32,291 nt of DNA from Opitutaceae bacterium. GTDB taxonomy: Bacteria; Verrucomicrobiota; Verrucomicrobiia; Opitutales; Opitutaceae. A program made the translations under genes and the position numbers. Within the stretch, counting starts at the first letter, position 1. Each line of letters begins with the position of its first letter. The stretch spans positions 1-32,291 of the forward strand of contig JABIRI010000196.1 in NCBI GenBank assembly GCA_018667915.1, read 5' to 3'. Below, one piece after another: positions 7,915-28,741 of the stretch. The notes beneath the pieces are model-generated. The model did not search any database. It was not told where the DNA came from and saw only the letters and a program-made list of their open reading frames with translations.

Positions 7915-8973
7915 CTACTCTCCCAGGACCCAGGAGAAGATCAGCGGCGCTACGATCGTGGCATCGCTTTCGACGATGAACTTCGGCGTCGAGGACGCGA
8001 GTTTGCCCCAGGTGATCTTTTCGTTCGGAACGGCCCCGGAATAGCTGCCGTAGCTGGTGGTCGAATCACTGATCTGACAAAAATAGCCCCAGAGCGGCAC
8101 GTCCGTCTGCTCGAGATCTTGGTGCAGCATCGGCACGACACAGATCGGGAAGTCACCGGCGATACCGCCACCAATTTGGAAGAACCCGATCGAGCCTTCG
8201 CCATTTTTGAGGGGCTTGGCCGTCTTGGTGTAATACTTGGCCAGATAGGTCATGTATTCGATGCCGGTGCGCACGGTGTGAACGTTTTTCACGTCTCCGC
8301 GAACGACGGCGGCAGCAAACATATTGCCGAGCGTCGAGTCTTCCCAACCGGGCACGATGATCGGGAGGTTTTTCTCGGCGGCGGCGAGTAGCCAGGAGTT
8401 GGCGGGATCGATCTGGTAGGATTTTTTGAGCACGCCGGATTTGAGCAGGCGATACATGAACTCGTGGGGGAAATAGGATTTGCCGGCTTGGTCGGCACCC
8501 ATCCATTCGGCGAGAACCGCCTTCTCGATGCGGCGCATGGCTTCCATCTCGGGAATGCACGTGTCGGTGACGCGGTTCATGTGGCGATCGAGCAGGCCCT
8601 GCTCGTCGGCGGCGGTGAGGTCGCGGTAGCCGGGGACGCGTTCGTAATAGTCGTGGGCGACGAGGTTAAATACGTCCTCCTCGAGGTTGGCGCCGGTGCA
8701 GACGATGGCGTGCACCTTGCCTTTGCGAATCATGTTCGCGAGGGAAATGCCGAGCTCGGCCGTGGACATGGCCCCGGCGAGGGTGACCATCATTTTGCCA
8801 CCGGACTTGAGGTGATCCTCGTAGCCCTTGGCGGCATCGAGTAGCGCGGCGGAGTTGAAGTGCCGGTAATGCCGCGCGATGTATTTGGAGATCGGACCCT
8901 TGCGGGCGGCTCGCTTGGCGTTGACGTCTTCGGGGCGCAGCTTTTGCCGCTTGGCTTTGGGTTTGCTCGGCAT
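7915..8973 (-). CDS. Deoxyhypusine-synthase-like protein (polyamine aminobutyl transferase family)
   Basis: 352 residues with the full deoxyhypusine synthase fold: TLAGAMSTAELGISLANMIR near the N-terminus, CTGANLEED (residues 92-100), GWEDSTLGNMF, IGGGIAGDFPICVVP and the C-terminal TWGKLASSTPKFIVESDATIVAPLI. Lys324 in TWGKL matches the lysine that forms the imine intermediate with spermidine (Lys329 in human). Bacteria lack eIF5A, so the bacterial relatives are thought to act on small polyamines, for example making homospermidine; which reaction applies here cannot be read from sequence. The gene follows a 71-residue gene by 10 bases and the two are probably co-transcribed. Opposite end: convergent repeats at 7631-7785. 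Confidence 0.9.
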   Translation of the reverse strand: MPSKPKAKRQKLRPEDVNAKRAARKGPISKYIARHYRHFNSAALLDAAKGYEDHLKSGGKMMVTLAGAMSTAELGISLANMIRKGKVHAIVCTGANLEEDVFNLVAHDYYERVPGYRDLTAADEQGLLDRHMNRVTDTCIPEMEAMRRIEKAVLAEWMGADQAGKSYFPHEFMYRLLKSGVLKKSYQIDPANSWLLAAAEKNLPIIVPGWEDSTLGNMFAAAVVRGDVKNVHTVRTGIEYMTYLAKYYTKTAKPLKNGEGSIGFFQIGGGIAGDFPICVVPMLHQDLEQTDVPLWGYFCQISDSTTSYGSYSGAVPNEKITWGKLASSTPKFIVESDATIVAPLIFSWVLGE

Positions 8974-20002: not shown

Positions 20003-20374
20003 ATGCACTTCGCCGCCCTCAAATCCCTCGCCGATGCCGAGATCGTCGCCACCCGCGACGAGCTTCCCGACGAGTTGGCGACTCTGGCGGCCGCGATTCC
20101 GGTGCACCACCATCTGAAACCCCCGCCCGAAGTGCTCGACGACGCGTTCGAGCCCGACATTCTCGGCCTGTTCGTCGGCCCGCCCCACGGTGAGAACACC
20201 GGCCATGGTAACGATGTGCCGGCGCAAATTCTCCTCTTTCTGGGGAACCTCTGGGAGTTCGCCGAAGCCGACGAAACCGCCTTCCTCGACGAGGTGCGAA
20301 TCACCTATCTACACGAACTGGGGCACTACTTTGGCTGGGACGAAGACGACCTCGCCGCCCGGGATCTCGACTGA
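20003..20374 (+). CDS. Small zincin-type metallopeptidase family protein
   Basis: 123 residues from ATG 20003 (MHFAALKSLADAE). An ATG at 19946 would add 19 residues but would leave only 12 bases to the divergent gene, so I prefer the later start. The C-terminus FLDEVRITYLHELGHYFGWDEDDL carries the zinc motif HELGH (residues 104-108) followed by Asp/Glu. This matches the metallopeptidase family once called DUF1025, with members of about 110-140 residues. The substrate is unknown, and members have been proposed to be intracellular proteases or zinc-binding proteins. No signal peptide is visible. Confidence 0.85.
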   Translation: MHFAALKSLADAEIVATRDELPDELATLAAAIPVHHHLKPPPEVLDDAFEPDILGLFVGPPHGENTGHGNDVPAQILLFLGNLWEFAEADETAFLDEVRITYLHELGHYFGWDEDDLAARDLD

Positions 20375-20483
20375 TAACCGGCGGTTTCCTCGCTCCAAAG
20401 ACGTTAATGTTGGAACATCCCGTGCAATTCGGCATTCACATAAGGCTAAGCCCGTGCATAGTGCGGGTAGAAATCCTCTCGAT

Positions 20484-21170
20484 ATGAAGCGTTTTATCAT
20501 CCTCGCCCTCGGCCTTTTGGTCACGAATCTCGCGGTGCAAGCCGAACGAACCTTGCCTCGCAAGAACTACGTGACGCGCATCGAATCCTGCGAAGCCATC
20601 ATTCGCGAATTTCAATACAACCCCGCGACCCGCATCCCTGCGGAAGTCCTGCGCCGGGCTGAAACGATCATCATCACCAATCAATTCAAGGCCGGATTCA
20701 TCTTCGGCGTGAAGGACGGTTACGGCGTGGTGCTCGCTCGCCGCGACGACGGCACCTGGAGCCTGCCCGGCTTTGTCAACGCCGGCGAAATGAGCTTCGG
20801 CCTCCAACTCGGGGCCAACGCAATCGAGACCGTCATCGTTATCACCGACAAGTCGGTCCAACCCCTCCTCTATAAGAACAAATTCAACATCGGCGTGGAC
20901 GCCAAAGCCATCGCCGGACCCCGTGTCGCCGAAGCCGAGAAGATCACTGAACTGCTCGATGAAGCGCCCATATTGATCTACAACAAAAAGAAGGGCCTCT
21001 TCGCCGGCGCTACGCTCAAAGGGGGGTGGCTCGCCGCCAATAATCGCGGCAACCGCTCCTACTACGAGACCCGCTACTCCCTACCCGAAATCCTGATGGG
21101 CGATTGGGTGCCCGAGCAGCCGGAAGTGAAATACCTGCGCGAGTTCGTAACGCAGATCACAAACCAATAA
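20484..21170 (+). CDS. Secreted SYLF-domain (YSC84-like) lipid-binding protein
   Basis: 228 residues from ATG 20484. Residues 1-20 are a signal peptide (MKRFIILALGLLVTNLAVQA, cleavage likely before ERT). The rest is a SYLF domain: YNPATRIPAEVLRRAETIIITNQFKAGFIFGVKDGYGVVLARRDDGTWSLPGFVNAG in several blocks, then LYKNKFNIGVDAKAIAGP and ILIYNKKKGLFAGATLKGGWL. SYLF proteins bind phosphoinositides in eukaryotes. Bacterial ones are periplasmic or surface proteins of unclear role. Longer in-frame sequence upstream overlaps the preceding gene and is not coding. A terminator follows at 21198-21222. Confidence 0.92.
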   Translation: MKRFIILALGLLVTNLAVQAERTLPRKNYVTRIESCEAIIREFQYNPATRIPAEVLRRAETIIITNQFKAGFIFGVKDGYGVVLARRDDGTWSLPGFVNAGEMSFGLQLGANAIETVIVITDKSVQPLLYKNKFNIGVDAKAIAGPRVAEAEKITELLDEAPILIYNKKKGLFAGATLKGGWLAANNRGNRSYYETRYSLPEILMGDWVPEQPEVKYLREFVTQITNQ

Positions 21171-21242: not shown

Positions 21243-24155
21243 CTACGGGTTGAGCACCGTCAGGGCCGGTCGATCGAGGGACTCTCGTAATGTCTCCTCG
21301 TCCGCCCACTCGCATTTTCCGGTGCGTTCGTTGCCATCGAGCAGTGCCACAAACTCCAACTGATCGCCCGTAGCCCAAGCTTGAACGATGTTAATCGCCG
21401 GCAACGTTTGCCGACCCATAATCTCGACCAACGGCACGTCCAGCCGTTCACCAAACGAACGATAGACCACTTCGGTGCACACGAGTTTGTCGCTGCTGAA
21501 AAAGTCGAAATCAAAATCATAGGGTTTACCCGCGTGACTGAACGCGTTGGCAATCACCTGTCGCTTTTCCGCCGCCGACAACTTCGGTCGCAATACCGCC
21601 ACCGCATCCGCCTCGCCCACCGAGTGCTCCAGCGAGGTGAACACCACACCTTCGCTCACCGCCTCGATCACGCGCAGTTCGTGGCCCTGTTCATCAGGCG
21701 TCGTAAATTTCTGCGCCCATTTGGCGACCGCCGGATCGTCAGCTATGCCCATGGCAGCTAGGTCATCCGCTGAACCCACATAAAGCGCGGCATGTGGCCA
21801 ATAACCCGGCAAAAACGCGTTCGAAAGATACCAATTGCGTCGCTCGATCAAAATGTCGCCCGGCTGCAACAAGGGCCGCAAGCGATCCAGCAACTCCGGC
21901 GTAATCAACGAAGCGCCCCCGCGCGGCGCGCGGATCTTCGCATCACCCACCAATGTCGAAAGAGTCGAACTCGCGCGGTAATACCCCTCGCCCAATGTCG
22001 TCAGCACATCCGCCGTCGCGGTCGCGATTTTGTAGCCCAAAATGCGCTCACCCAACTCAGCCGTGCGCTCGCCGACCGCCGCGATCGTGTGATGAAAATT
22101 GCCCCACGGTTCCGACGACTCCGGGCCCATGCCTGATTCGCGCCACTGCGGCAACGTCGCGTGATAATGGGTCCATCCATCGACCAACCACTGCCGGTGC
22201 GCGATATTACCCAGATTGGCACGAATCCGATCGTAGATTCCCGGTTCCAGACCCCAACGCGGCTCCCCCTCATTGAGCTTACGTTGGGCCTCTTCGCTCT
22301 CCTCAAACGCCAATACAAACCGCGCCGAATAATCGTAGAGCACCGCCGCCGCCGTGTAGTGCACCAGCAAAGCCCGCAATCGCAGTCGCTCATCAGTAAT
22401 CTGCGCGAAACGTTGATAACGCCATACATCACGCAGCAACGCCGAGCGCAGCGAAAGAAACGTGACCAACATGCGCCGCATCTCGTCGTCATCTTCGGGT
22501 CGGTAGTAAGACCGGTCACCCGCGAGCAGCTCTTGCTCAAATTTCCGGAACCGCGTTTCCAGTTCGGACAAACCGTCGATCACCGCGGTCAATCCCCGCT
22601 CGGATTCACCGAGCTGCGCGTTGAGCCTCCCCTCAGTCAACCGATGTAATGCCGGAGCATCCGTATGCAAAATTTCCAATGGTCGATCGCGCAGCAGCCA
22701 TCCTCCCAGGATCGCGACTAATAGTCCCACCGCACCCGCCATTCCCAGCCCGACCCAGAGCGGCGGGCGCACCAAGCGTCGCGCCGATAACGCGGGTTCC
22801 GGTGCGCCGGCATACTCCGTGGCCATTTCTTGCAGCATCGCGACCAACGCGGTCCGTTCTTCCCGCAACGCAGTAGTCCGTTTTCGTTGGGGCAGAAGTC
22901 GCAACTCCGCCCACCAATTCGGCACCACCAACCGTAGTCGTCTAAAAATCCACACCGCAGCGAACCCGCTCCAAGGCAGCATCGCCAACCAGCCCCACAC
23001 CACCCAGGGCTGAAAAACCTGCAGCATCACCCATCCCACCAATACGGCCCAACTGGTGTGCACCACTAGTCCTACCAACAGCCGATTTAACGCCACCGTC
23101 ATCTTGCCCGCTTGATCGAATCGTGCCGCAAAAAACCGGGTCACTCCATGGGGAATCAGGTGATGCACCAATCCCATCACGGCCAGCACCAGCACCCCAA
23201 CCAACTTCACGACATCCCAAACCAGCGCGAGCACGCGCACGGCCATGGGTTGGCGGAAGAAACGCGCATCCGCCGGCAGACCCGACGCGCGACGGCGCTC
23301 CGCCCACGTTTCCACTTTCTCGGCGGCGGATCGGGCGCGCGCCGAATCGGTCGCATGGAAATGATTGATCGCCTCCGCCACGCGCTGGCGCAGTTGCAAC
23401 AAACCGACCCGATGCAACCCCCGAGCCGCCGGCAACAGTCCCTCCACTTCCTCGAGCAGCGGTTCCCACTTCGCATCCTCCAAATGGATCGCAACCGACT
23501 TTATGCGCCGGTCGATTTCTGGGGTAAGTGCACGCATGGCGACGCGTTCTTCGCCGCCGTGTTGCGCCAGCCATGCGGCGGCATCGATCGCCTCACCTAC
23601 ATTGATCCACACCGCGCTGCGGAACCGATCTTTGCGTTCGTAGTTAAGCCCCACCGGCACAATCCGTAGATCTTTAACGCCTCCCGCCACTGCCTGCATC
23701 GCCAGCCGGGCAGCACCCGATCGCACCATGGCGACCTGAAGATCGTCGTGACTCTTGCCCTCGGGAAAGATCCCCATCACCGCACCCTCCCCATCGCCCA
23801 ACGACTGCGCGGCTTGTCGCAAAGATTCCAAGTTTTTTGTTACCTCCGCGCGGCTCCGACTATCACTGCCGCGGTGCGCCGGGATCATGCCCATGATTCG
23901 CATGATCGGCCCCAATCCGGTGATTTGAAAGAGCGGCGCTTTCGCCAGCAGCCGCACCGGGCGCTTGGCGACAATTCCGAGCAGGAGCGGATCGAGTAGA
24001 GAATTCGGATGATTGGCCACCAACAGCACCGGCCCCGTGCGTGGCACCTCACCTTCTCCACTTACTTCAATCCGCGGATAGTAAAACCGCACGATGGTGT
24101 GCAATACACCGCGCAGAAGGGCGGCCCAGATCGATTGCTCAGCCTTGGGTTTCAC
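21243..24155 (-). CDS. PlsC-type acyltransferase / membrane / YiiX-like cysteine hydrolase fusion
   Basis: 970 residues from GTG 24155, whose first base pairs overlap the preceding stop (GTGA). Residues about 15-220 are a lysophospholipid acyltransferase: VANHPNSLLDP (His49, Asp55; spacing HX5D rather than HX4D), AKAPLF, GMIPAHRG and GIFPEGKSHDD. Hydrophobic segments lie at about 305-333, 360-404 and 467-488. A helical region (500-735) has no family I recognise. Residues about 760-905 resemble the permuted papain-like YiiX/NlpC-P60 group: LQPGDILIERRNW, YWPHAALYVG (His788), VIEAVSEGVVF and DKLVCTEVVYRSF (Cys893). Such folds include amidases, deacylases and LRAT-type acyltransferases. The combination suggests two-step work on lipids or lipoprotein-like amides at the membrane. 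This is an inference. Confidence 0.85.
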   Translation of the reverse strand: MKPKAEQSIWAALLRGVLHTIVRFYYPRIEVSGEGEVPRTGPVLLVANHPNSLLDPLLLGIVAKRPVRLLAKAPLFQITGLGPIMRIMGMIPAHRGSDSRSRAEVTKNLESLRQAAQSLGDGEGAVMGIFPEGKSHDDLQVAMVRSGAARLAMQAVAGGVKDLRIVPVGLNYERKDRFRSAVWINVGEAIDAAAWLAQHGGEERVAMRALTPEIDRRIKSVAIHLEDAKWEPLLEEVEGLLPAARGLHRVGLLQLRQRVAEAINHFHATDSARARSAAEKVETWAERRRASGLPADARFFRQPMAVRVLALVWDVVKLVGVLVLAVMGLVHHLIPHGVTRFFAARFDQAGKMTVALNRLLVGLVVHTSWAVLVGWVMLQVFQPWVVWGWLAMLPWSGFAAVWIFRRLRLVVPNWWAELRLLPQRKRTTALREERTALVAMLQEMATEYAGAPEPALSARRLVRPPLWVGLGMAGAVGLLVAILGGWLLRDRPLEILHTDAPALHRLTEGRLNAQLGESERGLTAVIDGLSELETRFRKFEQELLAGDRSYYRPEDDDEMRRMLVTFLSLRSALLRDVWRYQRFAQITDERLRLRALLVHYTAAAVLYDYSARFVLAFEESEEAQRKLNEGEPRWGLEPGIYDRIRANLGNIAHRQWLVDGWTHYHATLPQWRESGMGPESSEPWGNFHHTIAAVGERTAELGERILGYKIATATADVLTTLGEGYYRASSTLSTLVGDAKIRAPRGGASLITPELLDRLRPLLQPGDILIERRNWYLSNAFLPGYWPHAALYVGSADDLAAMGIADDPAVAKWAQKFTTPDEQGHELRVIEAVSEGVVFTSLEHSVGEADAVAVLRPKLSAAEKRQVIANAFSHAGKPYDFDFDFFSSDKLVCTEVVYRSFGERLDVPLVEIMGRQTLPAINIVQAWATGDQLEFVALLDGNERTGKCEWADEETLRESLDRPALTVLNP

Positions 24156-25210
24156 GACCCGGAAGTCTGAAGTAGATCCACGAGCTGCGCGATGACTTCA
24201 TTGGCCACCTTGACCTGCATTTTTACGCGACTCAGTCCCTTGCCCTGCACCTTGCCCACCGTTTCGGTCCACCTACCACGTGGGCCTTTGATCGCGATCG
24301 CCCAGTAGGCAAACGGCACCTCGACATCGTGTGCTTCATCGGGTTCGGCGTAACCCGTCGTCGCCAACCCCATCGTCGCGCCAAACTTTCGGGCGACTCC
24401 TCGCGCCATTTGCTTGGCCACGGTTTCGCTGACCGCATTGCAGGACTCGGCCGTAGCGCGATCGACGTCCAACAAATCAACTTTGGCATCAATGGTGTAG
24501 GCGGTCAGGCCGCCACGAAAGAAACTAGATGCACCCGAAATCAATCCGATACGCGACTGGAGTTGACCGCTCGTCAGGCTCTCGGCGATAGCGAGGGATC
24601 GTTTCGGGTCCGCTATCATTCGGGCCCTCAATTGCAATAAATCACCCCACTTGAGCTTCGTAAGCGGGTGTGCGGGAGGGAGCTTTTTGCCCTTCGCCTT
24701 TTTGCCGGCGGCCTTAGCTTCAGCTTGGCGAATCCGCCAACGTTGGCTCTTATCGACGATGTAGCCGCAACAGTTGGGGGCGCCGCATCGGCACGGATGC
24801 TCATCGTAGTTTTCCCAATCGAAACCATAGTCGTAGTTGAGCTCTTCACCCTCCGCGATGTTGCGCTTTGCCGAAATCCAAATGCCTCCCTCGGCGTATT
24901 CCGGTTTACAGTTGGGCTCACAGGAATGGTTGATCAGGCGGGCCGTGTTCCAGGACACATCGCCATCAACATCGTAGCGCTCATTGAGCTCGAAAATATA
25001 GACGCAACCATCACCCCCCTCTTCGCGTCCGTCGCGACGATCTTGGTCCCGGCGATCGGCTTCCGCTTTAGAAATCTTTTCGCCCACGTATTCAATCACA
25101 CGCGTGCCTTTCGGAATATCCTTCGCGGCATACAAGCCATAGCCATGCACCGCTGAATCTGCGGTGCGCGCCCAAGGAGATGCCGTGGGCTGGGGAGTCT
25201 GTTTACTCAT
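24152..25210 (-). CDS. SET-domain methyltransferase fused to a CinA C-terminal (PncC-like) domain
   Basis: 352 residues from ATG 25210, which overlaps the xth stop (ATGA). In-frame sequence further upstream lies inside xth and is rejected. Residues about 10-130 are a SET domain: [34 protein letters not shown] (94-101) and [10 protein letters not shown] (Tyr126). A post-SET zinc motif [12 protein letters not shown] follows (Cys140, 142, 147). A Lys/Ala-rich linker leads to residues about 185-350, a CinA C-terminal domain: [11 protein letters not shown] (Ser211), [24 protein letters not shown] (Lys243), [14 protein letters not shown] and [11 protein letters not shown] domains methylate protein lysines. 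CinA-C/PncC deamidates NMN in NAD recycling. The fusion is unusual; the target is unknown. Confidence 0.88.
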
Positions 25211-25962
25211 TTGATTTCCAAGCCGACGGGACAGTGGTCGCTGCCCATGATCTCGGGATTTATCCAGGCCCGCTGCAACCGTGGCAACAGTTGCTGCGAG
25301 GCCATGAAATAATCGATGCGCCACCCGATATTGCGGCCGCGGGCACCGGCCCGGTAGGTCCACCATGAGTAGTGGTCCGGCCCCTTTTCGAACTCACGAA
25401 AGGTATCCACAAAACCGGCATCCACGAAACGATCAAAACCGGCGCGCTCTTCGGTGGTGAAACCCGGATTTCCCATGTTGGCCTTGGGGCGGGCGAGATC
25501 GATTTCTTCGTGGGCGACATTCAGGTCGCCGCAGAAAATGACGGGCTTACGTTTTTCGAGACTGGCAAGGTAGGCACAGAAGTCGATGTCCCAACGTTGG
25601 CGGTAGTCGAGACGACGGAGTTCGTTCTGCGCATTGGGCACATACACGTTGACCAAAAAATAGTCCTTAAACTCGACCGTCTGCGTTCGGCCTTCCTGAT
25701 CGTGCTCCTCGATTCCGATTCCCTCGGTGATCGCTATTGGAGTTTCACGGGTGATGATTCCCGTGCCGCTGTAACCCTTTTTGACGGCGGCGCTGAAGTG
25801 CGCGGTGTAGCCCTCGGGCCAATCCACGTGGGCCACGTCCGCCGGTTGGCATTTCGTCTCTTGCAGGCAAAGCACATCCGGGACGGTTTCGCTCAATATA
25901 TCGAGGAACCCCTTCTTCAGCACCGCCCGCAGGCCGTTTACATTCCAGGAGAGAAGTTTCAT
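25207..25962 (-). CDS. xth: Exodeoxyribonuclease III / AP endonuclease
   Basis: 251 residues. It cuts DNA at abasic sites and trims 3' blocked ends in base-excision repair. Motifs of the family are all present: [10 protein letters not shown] (Asn8), LQETKCQ (Glu34 region), [11 protein letters not shown] (Tyr), [14 protein letters not shown] (Asp and Asn), [10 protein letters not shown], and the C-terminal [11 protein letters not shown] (Asp-His). The length equals typical Gram-negative ExoIII-like proteins (250-268). It is the first gene of a three-gene unit: its TGA overlaps the ATG of the SET-CinA gene. The divergent receiver/kinase-like gene starts 121 bases away. Confidence 0.96.
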
Positions 25963-27139: not shown

Positions 27140-27244
27140 TAAGTATCCGGGTCTAGCCGGAGTCGGACAATCCACCGATTCCAAGGCGGGGCGTTGCCAA
27201 ACACGATCCATTCTGCCCAAGGTCGCGACTCCTTTCCATTGTCC

Positions 27245-28741
27245 ATGTCCGCATTCACGTCACTTCCCTTAGGTCAACCGATCCCCAATCGGCCGCATGC
27301 GGTATCGTGCAGTATCCCGACAATGCGCGATGTGATTGGCTACGAGGAGAAGGATCCGGCCGTCACCCAGCATTTACGAAGCGGCTATCCCCGCTTCGTC
27401 CTTCACCAATTCAACCAACAGCTCACCACACTGTTCGCCACCGAACTTGGATTGGTCGAGGAAACCCTCTGGCTTACATCGTCCACCCGCACGGCCGCGG
27501 ACTTGGTAAGGGAACTCGGTTCATCCGCACGGCCGACCGAGTATCAGGGAATCCACGGCGTGGTGCATCCTGCCTCCGCCCAAAACGATCTGCACGCCAA
27601 ACGCTATCTCCAAAACACTGGCGGATTTCTCAGTTCACGAGAGGCTGAAGACGCGCTGGTCTCACGCGGTGAATTGTCGCCCACTGCTGAACAGTTGGCC
27701 CCACTTGCAGACGCCGCCGATACCATCCGCGGTGTCCTCGTAAACGCTCACGCGGGATCCCGAGCCGATGACATCCTGCTCGCCCCGTCGGGCATGAACG
27801 CATTTCACGGTGCTTGGCGTAGCGTCGCTGATCTTCAAGCCGAACGCGGTCGCACCGTCTGGATCCAACTCGGTTGGCTCTACCTCGATACGATTGCCCA
27901 GCTAAAGCGTTTCACCTCCGGTCCCACGGACTACGTAAACGTCACCGATGTAAATGACCTCGCCACACTCAAGGCAGCTATCGCAACAGCGGGAGATCGA
28001 CTCGGTGGCCTCGTCACCGAAGTGCCCACCAACCCACTCGTCCAGACCGCCGATATCGAACAAGTCGCCGCGCTCATCCACGCAGCCGGCGGTCGTGTCG
28101 TGCTCGATCCTACCCTCGTTTCCCCCTTCAACATCCGCCTGCTGGAATACGCTGATGTCGTGGTCAACAGTCTCACCAAATACGCCGCCAACGAAGGCGA
28201 CGTCATCGCGGGCTCGGTCATCATCAACCCCAAGGGCTCCGATGCCGCGGAGTTGCGCGAGCGCATCACCAATCGTCTCGATCCCGTTTACCAGCGCGAC
28301 CTGCGGCGGCTGGCGGCCCAAATTCCGGCTTACGAATCCACGGTGCAACGCACCAATCAAACTGCCTTGGTCGTGGTCGAATATCTGCGCAAACACCCCG
28401 CCGTAAATGAGGTGTTCTGGAGTCTGCAACCGTCCACGGCAGAGAATTTCAAGAAGATCGCGCGCCGGCCCGGCAACATCGGTAGCATGATCAGTTTTAC
28501 GCTCAGTCGCCCTTTGGCCGAAGTGTATGACCGGATCCTGATTCCCAAGGGTCCCAGCTTCGGCATGGTGCACTCTCTTATCTGCCCCTTCATCTATCTG
28601 GCCCACTACGACCTCGTGACCAGCGAGACCGGCCGTCAAAAACTCGCTGCGGCCGGTATCAACCCCGAACTCCTACGTCTCTCCGTCGGCACGGAACCCG
28701 TCGAAGAAATCATCGCCGCCCTCGCCGCGGGATTGGATTAG
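27245..28741 (+). CDS. Cys/Met-metabolism PLP-dependent enzyme with a long N-terminal extension
   Basis: 498 residues from ATG 27245 (MSAFTSLPLGQPIPNRPHAV). The catalytic half carries LLAPSGMNAFHGAWRSV, VTEVPTNPLVQTADIEQVAALIHAAGGRVVLDPTLVSPFNIR and VVVNSLTKYAANEGDVIAGSV. Lys312 in SLTKY matches the PLP-binding lysine of cystathionine gamma-synthase/lyase and O-acetylhomoserine sulfhydrylase. Those enzymes have about 390 residues with the Lys near 200, so about 110 residues are extra at the N-terminus. Part of this region (YEEKDPAVTQHLRSGYPRFVLHQF) resembles the substrate-entry segment of the family. The exact reaction is undetermined. It ends 10 bases from the convergent hybrid kinase. Confidence 0.82.
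   Translation: MSAFTSLPLGQPIPNRPHAVSCSIPTMRDVIGYEEKDPAVTQHLRSGYPRFVLHQFNQQLTTLFATELGLVEETLWLTSSTRTAADLVRELGSSARPTEYQGIHGVVHPASAQNDLHAKRYLQNTGGFLSSREAEDALVSRGELSPTAEQLAPLADAADTIRGVLVNAHAGSRADDILLAPSGMNAFHGAWRSVADLQAERGRTVWIQLGWLYLDTIAQLKRFTSGPTDYVNVTDVNDLATLKAAIATAGDRLGGLVTEVPTNPLVQTADIEQVAALIHAAGGRVVLDPTLVSPFNIRLLEYADVVVNSLTKYAANEGDVIAGSVIINPKGSDAAELRERITNRLDPVYQRDLRRLAAQIPAYESTVQRTNQTALVVVEYLRKHPAVNEVFWSLQPSTAENFKKIARRPGNIGSMISFTLSRPLAEVYDRILIPKGPSFGMVHSLICPFIYLAHYDLVTSETGRQKLAAAGINPELLRLSVGTEPVEEIIAALAAGLD

Follow-up and report, generated by a model that had tools for sequence, protein, structure and literature searches.

A PlsC-type acyltransferase fused through membrane segments to a permuted papain-like enzyme, a candidate for lipid acyl remodelling

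A 32,291-nucleotide stretch of an Opitutaceae genome (assembly GCA_018667915.1, contig JABIRI010000196.1; hereafter the window) carries one long gene that joins a PlsC-type acyltransferase domain, a membrane region, a helical domain here called HEL, and a permuted papain-like domain of the Peptidase_C92 (YiiX/YaeF) family. We propose that this protein acts as a lipid acyl-remodelling enzyme of the inner membrane with its active sites on opposite faces, a reading to which we give a probability of about 0.5. A preliminary description of the window had suggested that the protein could add and remove acyl groups on lipids, and from the domain families and the neighbours found at a minority of loci this appears to be the best-supported idea, with the two sites probably on opposite faces. 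The families and their chemistry are already known; what is new is the architecture and the companion domain HEL. The literature searched, which covered few subscription papers, contained no account of HEL or of PlsC fused with C92.

One gene with two conserved active sites

The gene is a single open frame of 970 codons. Its extent agrees with the preliminary description, which gave no strand; the gene lies on the minus strand. Its parts are as follows, with the basis of each assignment in brackets.

21243..24155, minus strand: whole fusion gene, 970 residues, GTG start (open reading frame and relatives)
23649..24074, minus strand: PlsC/acyltransferase domain, residues 28-169 (PF01553 and fold match to 5kym_A)
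23991..24011, minus strand: motif I, H49-x5-D55 (alignment rows)
23757..23768, minus strand: motif III, FPEG, residues 130-133 (alignment rows)
22944..23246, minus strand: membrane region, residues 304-404 (hydropathy and model helices)
22770..22943, minus strand: K/R-rich helical stretch, residues 405-462, probably cytosolic (mean charge counts)
22692..22760, minus strand: last membrane helix, residues 466-488 (model and hydropathy)
21942..22649, minus strand: HEL helical domain, residues 503-738, without a Pfam family (Pfam, relatives and model)
21402..21869, minus strand: permuted papain-like C92 (YiiX/YaeF) domain, residues 763-918 (PF05708 and 2if6_A)
21792..21794, minus strand: catalytic His788 (alignment rows)
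21663..21665, minus strand: third catalytic residue, Glu831 (alignment rows)
21519..21521, minus strand: signature Tyr879 (alignment rows)
21477..21479, minus strand: catalytic Cys893 (alignment rows)

Pfam places the Acyltransferase family PF01553 at residues 28-169 (E 1.3e-22, 80.5 bits, cut-off 23) and Peptidase_C92, PF05708, at residues 763-918 (E 7.6e-18, 65.5 bits, cut-off 27), and gives no further family at E <= 0.1. The best sequence matches among solved structures are PlsC of T. maritima (5kym) and YiiX of E. coli (2if6), the latter matching the C92 part in a profile search with an E value of 2.2e-6.

Catalytic residues were compared in an alignment of 34 fusion-related rows, comprising 27 loci of an 80-locus set, six rows from further genomes and the window (L124, whose sequence is identical to the window's, was omitted). 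The HX5D spacing and the FPEG motif are as given in the preliminary description: His49 and Asp55 are kept in all 27 rows that have a residue there, and FPEG in all 29 (five of the 34 rows are gapped). The seven gaps at motif I belong to rows that start at a contig end (L045, L046, L057 and L107) or whose frame starts later (L071, L077 and L131). The window's motif III reads FPEGKSHD, and its His136 and Asp137 are present in 25 and 24, respectively, of the 29 rows with residues. At the other end of the protein, where the earlier numbering of His788 and Cys893 was right, Tyr879 and Cys893 each occur in 34 of 34 rows, and His788 and Glu831 in 33, the exception being L107, with Gln and Ser, respectively. 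The same His-Glu-Tyr-Cys set has been described for YiiX and BcPPNE (PMC3142127; this and the other papers below are cited from excerpts of their text). With the catalytic residues kept in both halves, both active sites look constrained within one polypeptide, as far as an alignment can tell.

The open reading frame is not a chance one, since near full-length relatives exist in genomes G003 (66% identity), G047 (55%) and G041 (55%), and at 27 of the 80 loci a single frame matches both the N-terminal and the C-terminal profile. An assembly artefact was likewise rejected: the fusion is intact on a 6.1-Mb contig in G003 and at many other loci.

Structure models and the HEL domain

Structural modelling had been proposed earlier as a check on the acyltransferase fold and on the pairing of Cys893 with His788. 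A model of the whole fusion was built from 35 sequences (mean predicted local distance difference test score, pLDDT, 88.2; predicted template modelling score, pTM, 0.63). Its residues 4-262 align with PlsC 5kym_A in VIA-align at Z 16.6, with a root-mean-square deviation (rmsd) of 3.6 over 196 aligned residues, and the PlsC part is also matched by Foldseek (E 1.5e-4). The N-terminal half has the features of a PF01553 acyltransferase, namely motif I of the H-x4/5-D type, motif III FPEG, and a PlsC fold in the model. Residues 754-940 of the same model align with BcPPNE 3kw0_C at Z 12.6. A second model covers the C-terminal 481 residues and was built from 57 sequences (mean pLDDT 92.4, pTM 0.88); its C92 part aligns with YiiX 2if6_A at Z 16.2 (rmsd 2.0 A, 148 aligned, 24% identity) over a range that takes in His788, Glu831, Tyr879 and Cys893, and this model aligns with 3kw0_B at Z 13.0. 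Foldseek at E <= 0.001 returned no C92 structure for either model, and the C92 fold assignment comes from VIA-align together with the profile search with 2if6. The modelled fold covers both Cys893 and His788, and as far as the models allow the predicted pairing is not refuted. The C-terminal part has the features of the YaeF/YiiX group, namely a His or polar residue before the Cys (the permuted order), a conserved Tyr and the fold in the model.

The region at residues 500-735, which the preliminary description could assign to no family, indeed matches no Pfam family; it is a conserved domain that accompanies C92 and not an insert of unknown kind. An insert special to the fusion was rejected, as the region is common to C92 proteins without PlsC. 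When 57 HEL-C92 members were scanned with Pfam, no family besides C92 was matched by more than one member. The pTM of 0.88 of the C-terminal model suggests that HEL and C92 would fold as one unit. HEL resembles 14-3-3, syntaxin, STAT and designed bundles at Z of about 7-11; no kinship to these is claimed, this range reflecting a common helical arrangement.

HEL-C92 occurs in several phyla and in several settings. It is also found free-standing, in open frames of about 445-600 codons that carry a signal peptide or lipobox in some cases and neither in others, and downstream of another kind of membrane domain, one with about seven helices, in frames of about 700-775 codons. The other half of the fusion can likewise stand apart: the stretches retrieved from genomes G033 and G053 hold acyltransferase-membrane halves but no C92. 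G049 has a C92 gene with a PlsC gene directly after it in the same orientation, and in an Akkermansiaceae locus (L105) genes for an unfused C92 protein, an LplT-like transporter of the major facilitator superfamily (MFS) and PlsC are consecutive on one strand.

Distribution and origin of the fusion

Among 95 related genomes, including the window's own (G000; 361 contigs, 99% complete), the intact full-length fusion is present in four: G000, G003, G047 and G041. Broken copies occur in G005 and G006, and most other matches cover the acyltransferase part alone. The HEL-C92 profile matched 57 genomes of a class sample of 384; in the loci cut out for 30 of the best matches, the fused form is present in G000, G003, G047, G229, G270 and G421. 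A phylum sample of 288 genomes yielded the fusion in three and one further partial match with the full-length profile at E <= 1e-60, a profile in which some input rows (P0002, P0003) extend upstream beyond the probable start. The survey of relatives extends the distribution beyond Verrucomicrobiota, with complete fusions in Verrucomicrobiota, in Planctomycetota and in a single deltaproteobacterial bin, L060, which is assigned to Myxococcota. L057 (Acidobacteriota, truncated by a contig end) and L077 (Gemmatimonadota) show only the membrane part together with the C-terminal half.

A tree of 106 HEL-C92 rows has a branch, with a Shimodaira-Hasegawa-like approximate likelihood ratio (SH-aLRT) support of 92, that separates the 34 fusion rows from the rest. 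The tree was built by a quick method with no bootstrap and midpoint-rooted for drawing; L058, L059, L124 and L150 were omitted by choice and L082, L105, L107, L109 and L153 as too partial. From this placement a single origin of the fusion is apparently the simplest reading of the sequences. Many rows are metagenome bins, and single odd placements may be binning errors.

Some copies are altered. In L131 (G419) one in-frame TAA, at positions 943-945, splits the acyltransferase part from the membrane-HEL-C92 part. The homologous gene at L043:8028-9442 (G005) has no acyltransferase part and is interrupted by stop codons and changes of frame; it is 86% identical to the window's gene over residues 810-970, and its state reflects decay or assembly error. 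In G006 the same gene region occurs twice on one contig (L041 and L042), with frameshifts in the fusion and in neighbouring genes, possibly the result of sequencing errors and a duplicated assembly stretch.

Membrane sidedness

The membrane region consists of a hydrophobic segment at residues 304-333, with a helix break at 321, followed by two helices; the model places helices at 304-320, 322-345, 351-378 and 383-420. Over 33 rows, residues 405-462 carry a mean of 11.5 K+R versus 6.5 D+E, and residues 489-515 a mean of 3.3 K+R versus 4.4 D+E. Given this charge pattern and a PlsC domain inside the cell, the arrangement that fits best is one in which segment 304-333 would not cross fully, the next two helices would form a hairpin, and helix 466-488 would lead out of the cytosol.

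Relatives of the seven-helix type, in which a crude rule applied to 11 proteins counted seven helices in seven, eight in three and six in one, mostly have a charge pattern with the N-terminus in and the C-terminus out. In the tree, the fusion falls inside an 80-row group (SH-aLRT 92) that also holds 32 rows with a signal or anchor segment (S1) and 11 seven-helix (7TM) rows, and 23 of the 26 rows labelled signal-less (Cyt) fall outside it; these labels come from a crude hydropathy rule, and some are wrong (L112 and L103, for example, are labelled Cyt though signal-peptide-like). L105, which was left out of the tree, was classed by its N-terminus only. From the charges and the tree placement we consider it likely that the C92 domain is periplasmic and that the membrane separates the two active sites.

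Gene neighbourhood

Lipid-related neighbours (LplT-like, PlsC, phospholipase-D-like and PAP2 genes) occur at a minority of HEL-C92 loci. Within flanks of up to 6 kb, LplT-like MFS genes are present at four of the 80 loci, three with fusions (L054, L055 and L065) and one with an unfused C92 gene (L105). In NCBIfam they match the N-terminal MFS part of PRK08633 best (E 9.7e-72 or better) and the LplT model at E 3.6e-27 or better, with every score under the curated cut-off. About 0.12 such neighbours would be expected from the class-wide rate over 0.84 Mb of loci, a rough figure that takes 145 matches in 236 genomes at an assumed 4.2 Mb per genome, draws its control from one class and its loci from several phyla, uses different searches on the two sides, and includes three loci that seeded the profile among the four. 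Strong LplT-like matches were found in two (G229 and G421) of 12 genomes checked. L055 also has a phospholipase-D-like gene. At L065:704-7371, plus strand, genes for an LplT-like MFS protein, PlsC, a PAP2/PDCT-like protein and the fusion lie on one strand and resemble a lipid-remodelling operon.

A neighbour survey of 28 loci (21 fusion, seven other) found no gene family common to more than five of them; the widest sharing beyond Opitutaceae was that of an Amidohydro_2 gene. In a search with a profile built from five of its eight loci, this gene lies near eight of the 80 loci (L054, L055, L066, as a 110-codon piece, L069, L070, L076, L120 and L123), where it accompanies fused, seven-helix and free-standing HEL-C92. 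Its product is a possible third partner.

In several Opitutaceae the fusion's neighbours are SET, CinA and SYLF-domain genes. The window's upstream gene is:

24152..25366, minus strand: SET and CinA (PncC-type) in one 404-residue open reading frame, with a 4-base overlap with the fusion start (domain matches)

The GTG start of the fusion overlaps the TGA stop of this gene as GTGA, and the two are therefore probably translated together. SET and CinA are split into two neighbouring frames in G003 (L038) and G047 (L039). Convergent with the fusion, at 20190-21170 on the plus strand, is a SYLF/Ysc84-domain gene with relatives near the fusion in G003, G047, G005 and L045; SYLF domains bind lipids. 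A gene for a pyridoxal-phosphate enzyme at 27194-28741 (plus strand) has BesB as its best NCBIfam match (E 3.1e-116, 389 bits, cut-off 800), and its relatives lie near the fusion in G003, G047, G005 and G006; BesB we take to be a terminal-alkyne amino acid enzyme. Elsewhere in the window, positions 7915-8973 on the minus strand hold a gene of the deoxyhypusine synthase family in a bacterium (PF01916, E 7.9e-39). Searches of the window for tRNAs, and for Rfam families at gathering scores, gave no match.

Proposed function and alternatives

Enzymes with the permuted NlpC/P60 fold bind or cleave acyl chains, and PlsC-type domains add them; deacylation or transfer outside and reacylation inside are therefore proposed. 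YiiX was found to hold a probable fatty acid (PMC3142127), the permuted NlpC/P60 domain of Tox-Act1 cleaves phosphatidylglycerol and phosphatidylethanolamine (PMC12994826), lipoprotein N-acylation depends on both LnsA and LnsB (PMC7387801), and lyso-lipids that LplT has flipped are reacylated by Aas at the cytosolic face (PMC11416262). The cytosolic HX5D PlsC domain would move an acyl chain from acyl-acyl carrier protein (acyl-ACP) or acyl-coenzyme A onto a lyso-lipid, and the membrane segments would anchor the protein and put the HEL-C92 unit in the periplasm. There, a thiol enzyme built on Cys893, His788, Glu831 and Tyr879 would deacylate a membrane lipid by way of an acyl-enzyme intermediate and hand the acyl chain to water or to an acceptor. 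The lyso-lipid would cross between the sites by a flippase (LplT-like where present) or by another route, and acting together the two sites would renew the acyl chains of phospholipids in the inner membrane. The lipid substrate, the direction and the coupling of the two sites are what we infer from these families. A bolder form of the proposal, which we regard as doubtful, has one polypeptide running the whole acyl-exchange cycle, with stripping or transfer in the periplasm, re-addition in the cytosol, and the membrane part passing the lyso-lipid where LplT is missing. Should the proposed lipid function hold, some Verrucomicrobiota and Planctomycetota would have a one-protein deacylation-reacylation cycle, for which E. 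coli uses LplT and Aas together with either Lnt or a lipase. As of 2020, it was poorly understood what bacterial YaeF/YiiX-like permuted papain-like enzymes do (PMC7387801). The acyltransferase fusion and the LplT-like neighbours in some relatives give the C92 domain a testable lipid function.

Several observations weigh against remodelling across the membrane. The YiiX authors suggested an amidase (PMC3142127), and HX5D with FPEGxSHD recalls fungal glycerol-3-phosphate acyltransferases (GPATs) rather than lysophospholipid acyltransferases. All of the LplT-like matches score below NCBI's LplT cut-off, and for that reason we can only infer their flippase function; they adjoin only 4 of the 80 loci, of which L054 and L055 are sisters in the tree, and G000, G003, G047, G041, G005 and G270 have no LplT-like match at E <= 1e-3. 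The operon partners in Opitutaceae are the SET/CinA genes, which have no lipid link. As to sidedness, three of the 35 S1 rows (L036, L127 and L144) fall outside the 80-row group of the tree, and signal-less HEL-C92 proteins exist, among them the unfused ones beside PlsC genes in L105 and G049, which makes a cytosolic action of HEL-C92 possible. By eye and hydropathy these two proteins lack a signal peptide, and the hydrophobic segment 304-333 could cross the membrane fully; with four crossings, both domains would be cytosolic and act on the same leaflet. Such an arrangement would leave the K/R-rich stretch 405-462 outside and conflicts with the tree placement, and we think it quite unlikely.

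Two other readings change the chemistry. The C92 domain might be a transacylase that passes a phospholipid acyl chain to an acceptor in the periplasm (the amine of a lipoprotein, an amino-lipid or some other lipid), along the lines considered for LnsA/LnsB of Staphylococcus, with PlsC repairing the lyso-phospholipid, a natural coupling. LnsA is a permuted NlpC/P60 protein with YiiX as its top HHpred match and a predicted signal peptide (PMC7387801), and, going by published excerpts, the LRAT/HRASLS acyltransferases belong to the same fold family. Against this, the acceptor is hypothetical, and Lnt scores over the cut-off in 11 of the 12 genomes, G000 among them, so that these genomes, G041 perhaps excepted, already have an enzyme for lipoprotein N-acylation; a sole role as a replacement for Lnt was rejected on this count, and the transacylase as a whole we hold to be unlikely. 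The acyltransferase half might instead be a glycerol-3-phosphate or dihydroxyacetone-phosphate acyltransferase of de novo synthesis, with C92 a separate amidase or a regulator of envelope lipids. HX5D and FPEGKSHD match motifs described for fungal GPATs (PMC4207751, PMC7613133), but PlsY is matched in all 12 genomes, in 11 of them above the cut-off (the G000 match is divided between two contigs, into complementary pieces that each fall short of the cut-off), and a GPAT is probably already present. The fusion's best NCBIfam match, moreover, is PRK08633, an acyl-[ACP]-phospholipid O-acyltransferase model, far below its cut-off. Replacement of PlsY as a sole role was rejected, given the PlsY matches, and a part in de novo synthesis seems improbable.

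Comparison with known systems

The closest counterparts of the C-terminal domain, YiiX (E. coli, 2if6) and BcPPNE (3kw0), both of PF05708, have the permuted fold and the His-Glu-Tyr-Cys set in common with the fusion. YiiX is a small single-domain protein, whereas the C92 domain of the fusion is packed with a helical domain and joined through the membrane to PlsC. Fungal GPATs Sct1 and Gpt2, compared by motif only, have HX5D and FPEGxSHD-like motifs in common with the acyltransferase half; we know of no C92 domain in them. Tox-Act1, a Salmonella effector of the type VI secretion system, also has a permuted NlpC/P60 domain; in the published excerpts it is a secreted toxin, whereas the domain of the fusion is joined to PlsC in one protein. 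In the LnsA/LnsB system, LnsA, as described in excerpts, resembles the C92 domain of the fusion in being a permuted NlpC/P60 enzyme, one with a predicted signal peptide, that acts together with a membrane partner, but LnsB is CAAX-protease-like and not PlsC, and G000 has an Lnt match. The LplT-Aas system, which also exists as a single open reading frame, has a PlsC-type acyltransferase in common with the fusion, and LplT-like genes adjoin some of the fusion's relatives; at the same Pfam threshold as above, the fusion lacks the MFS and acyl-ACP synthetase (AMP-binding) domains and has a papain-like enzyme instead.

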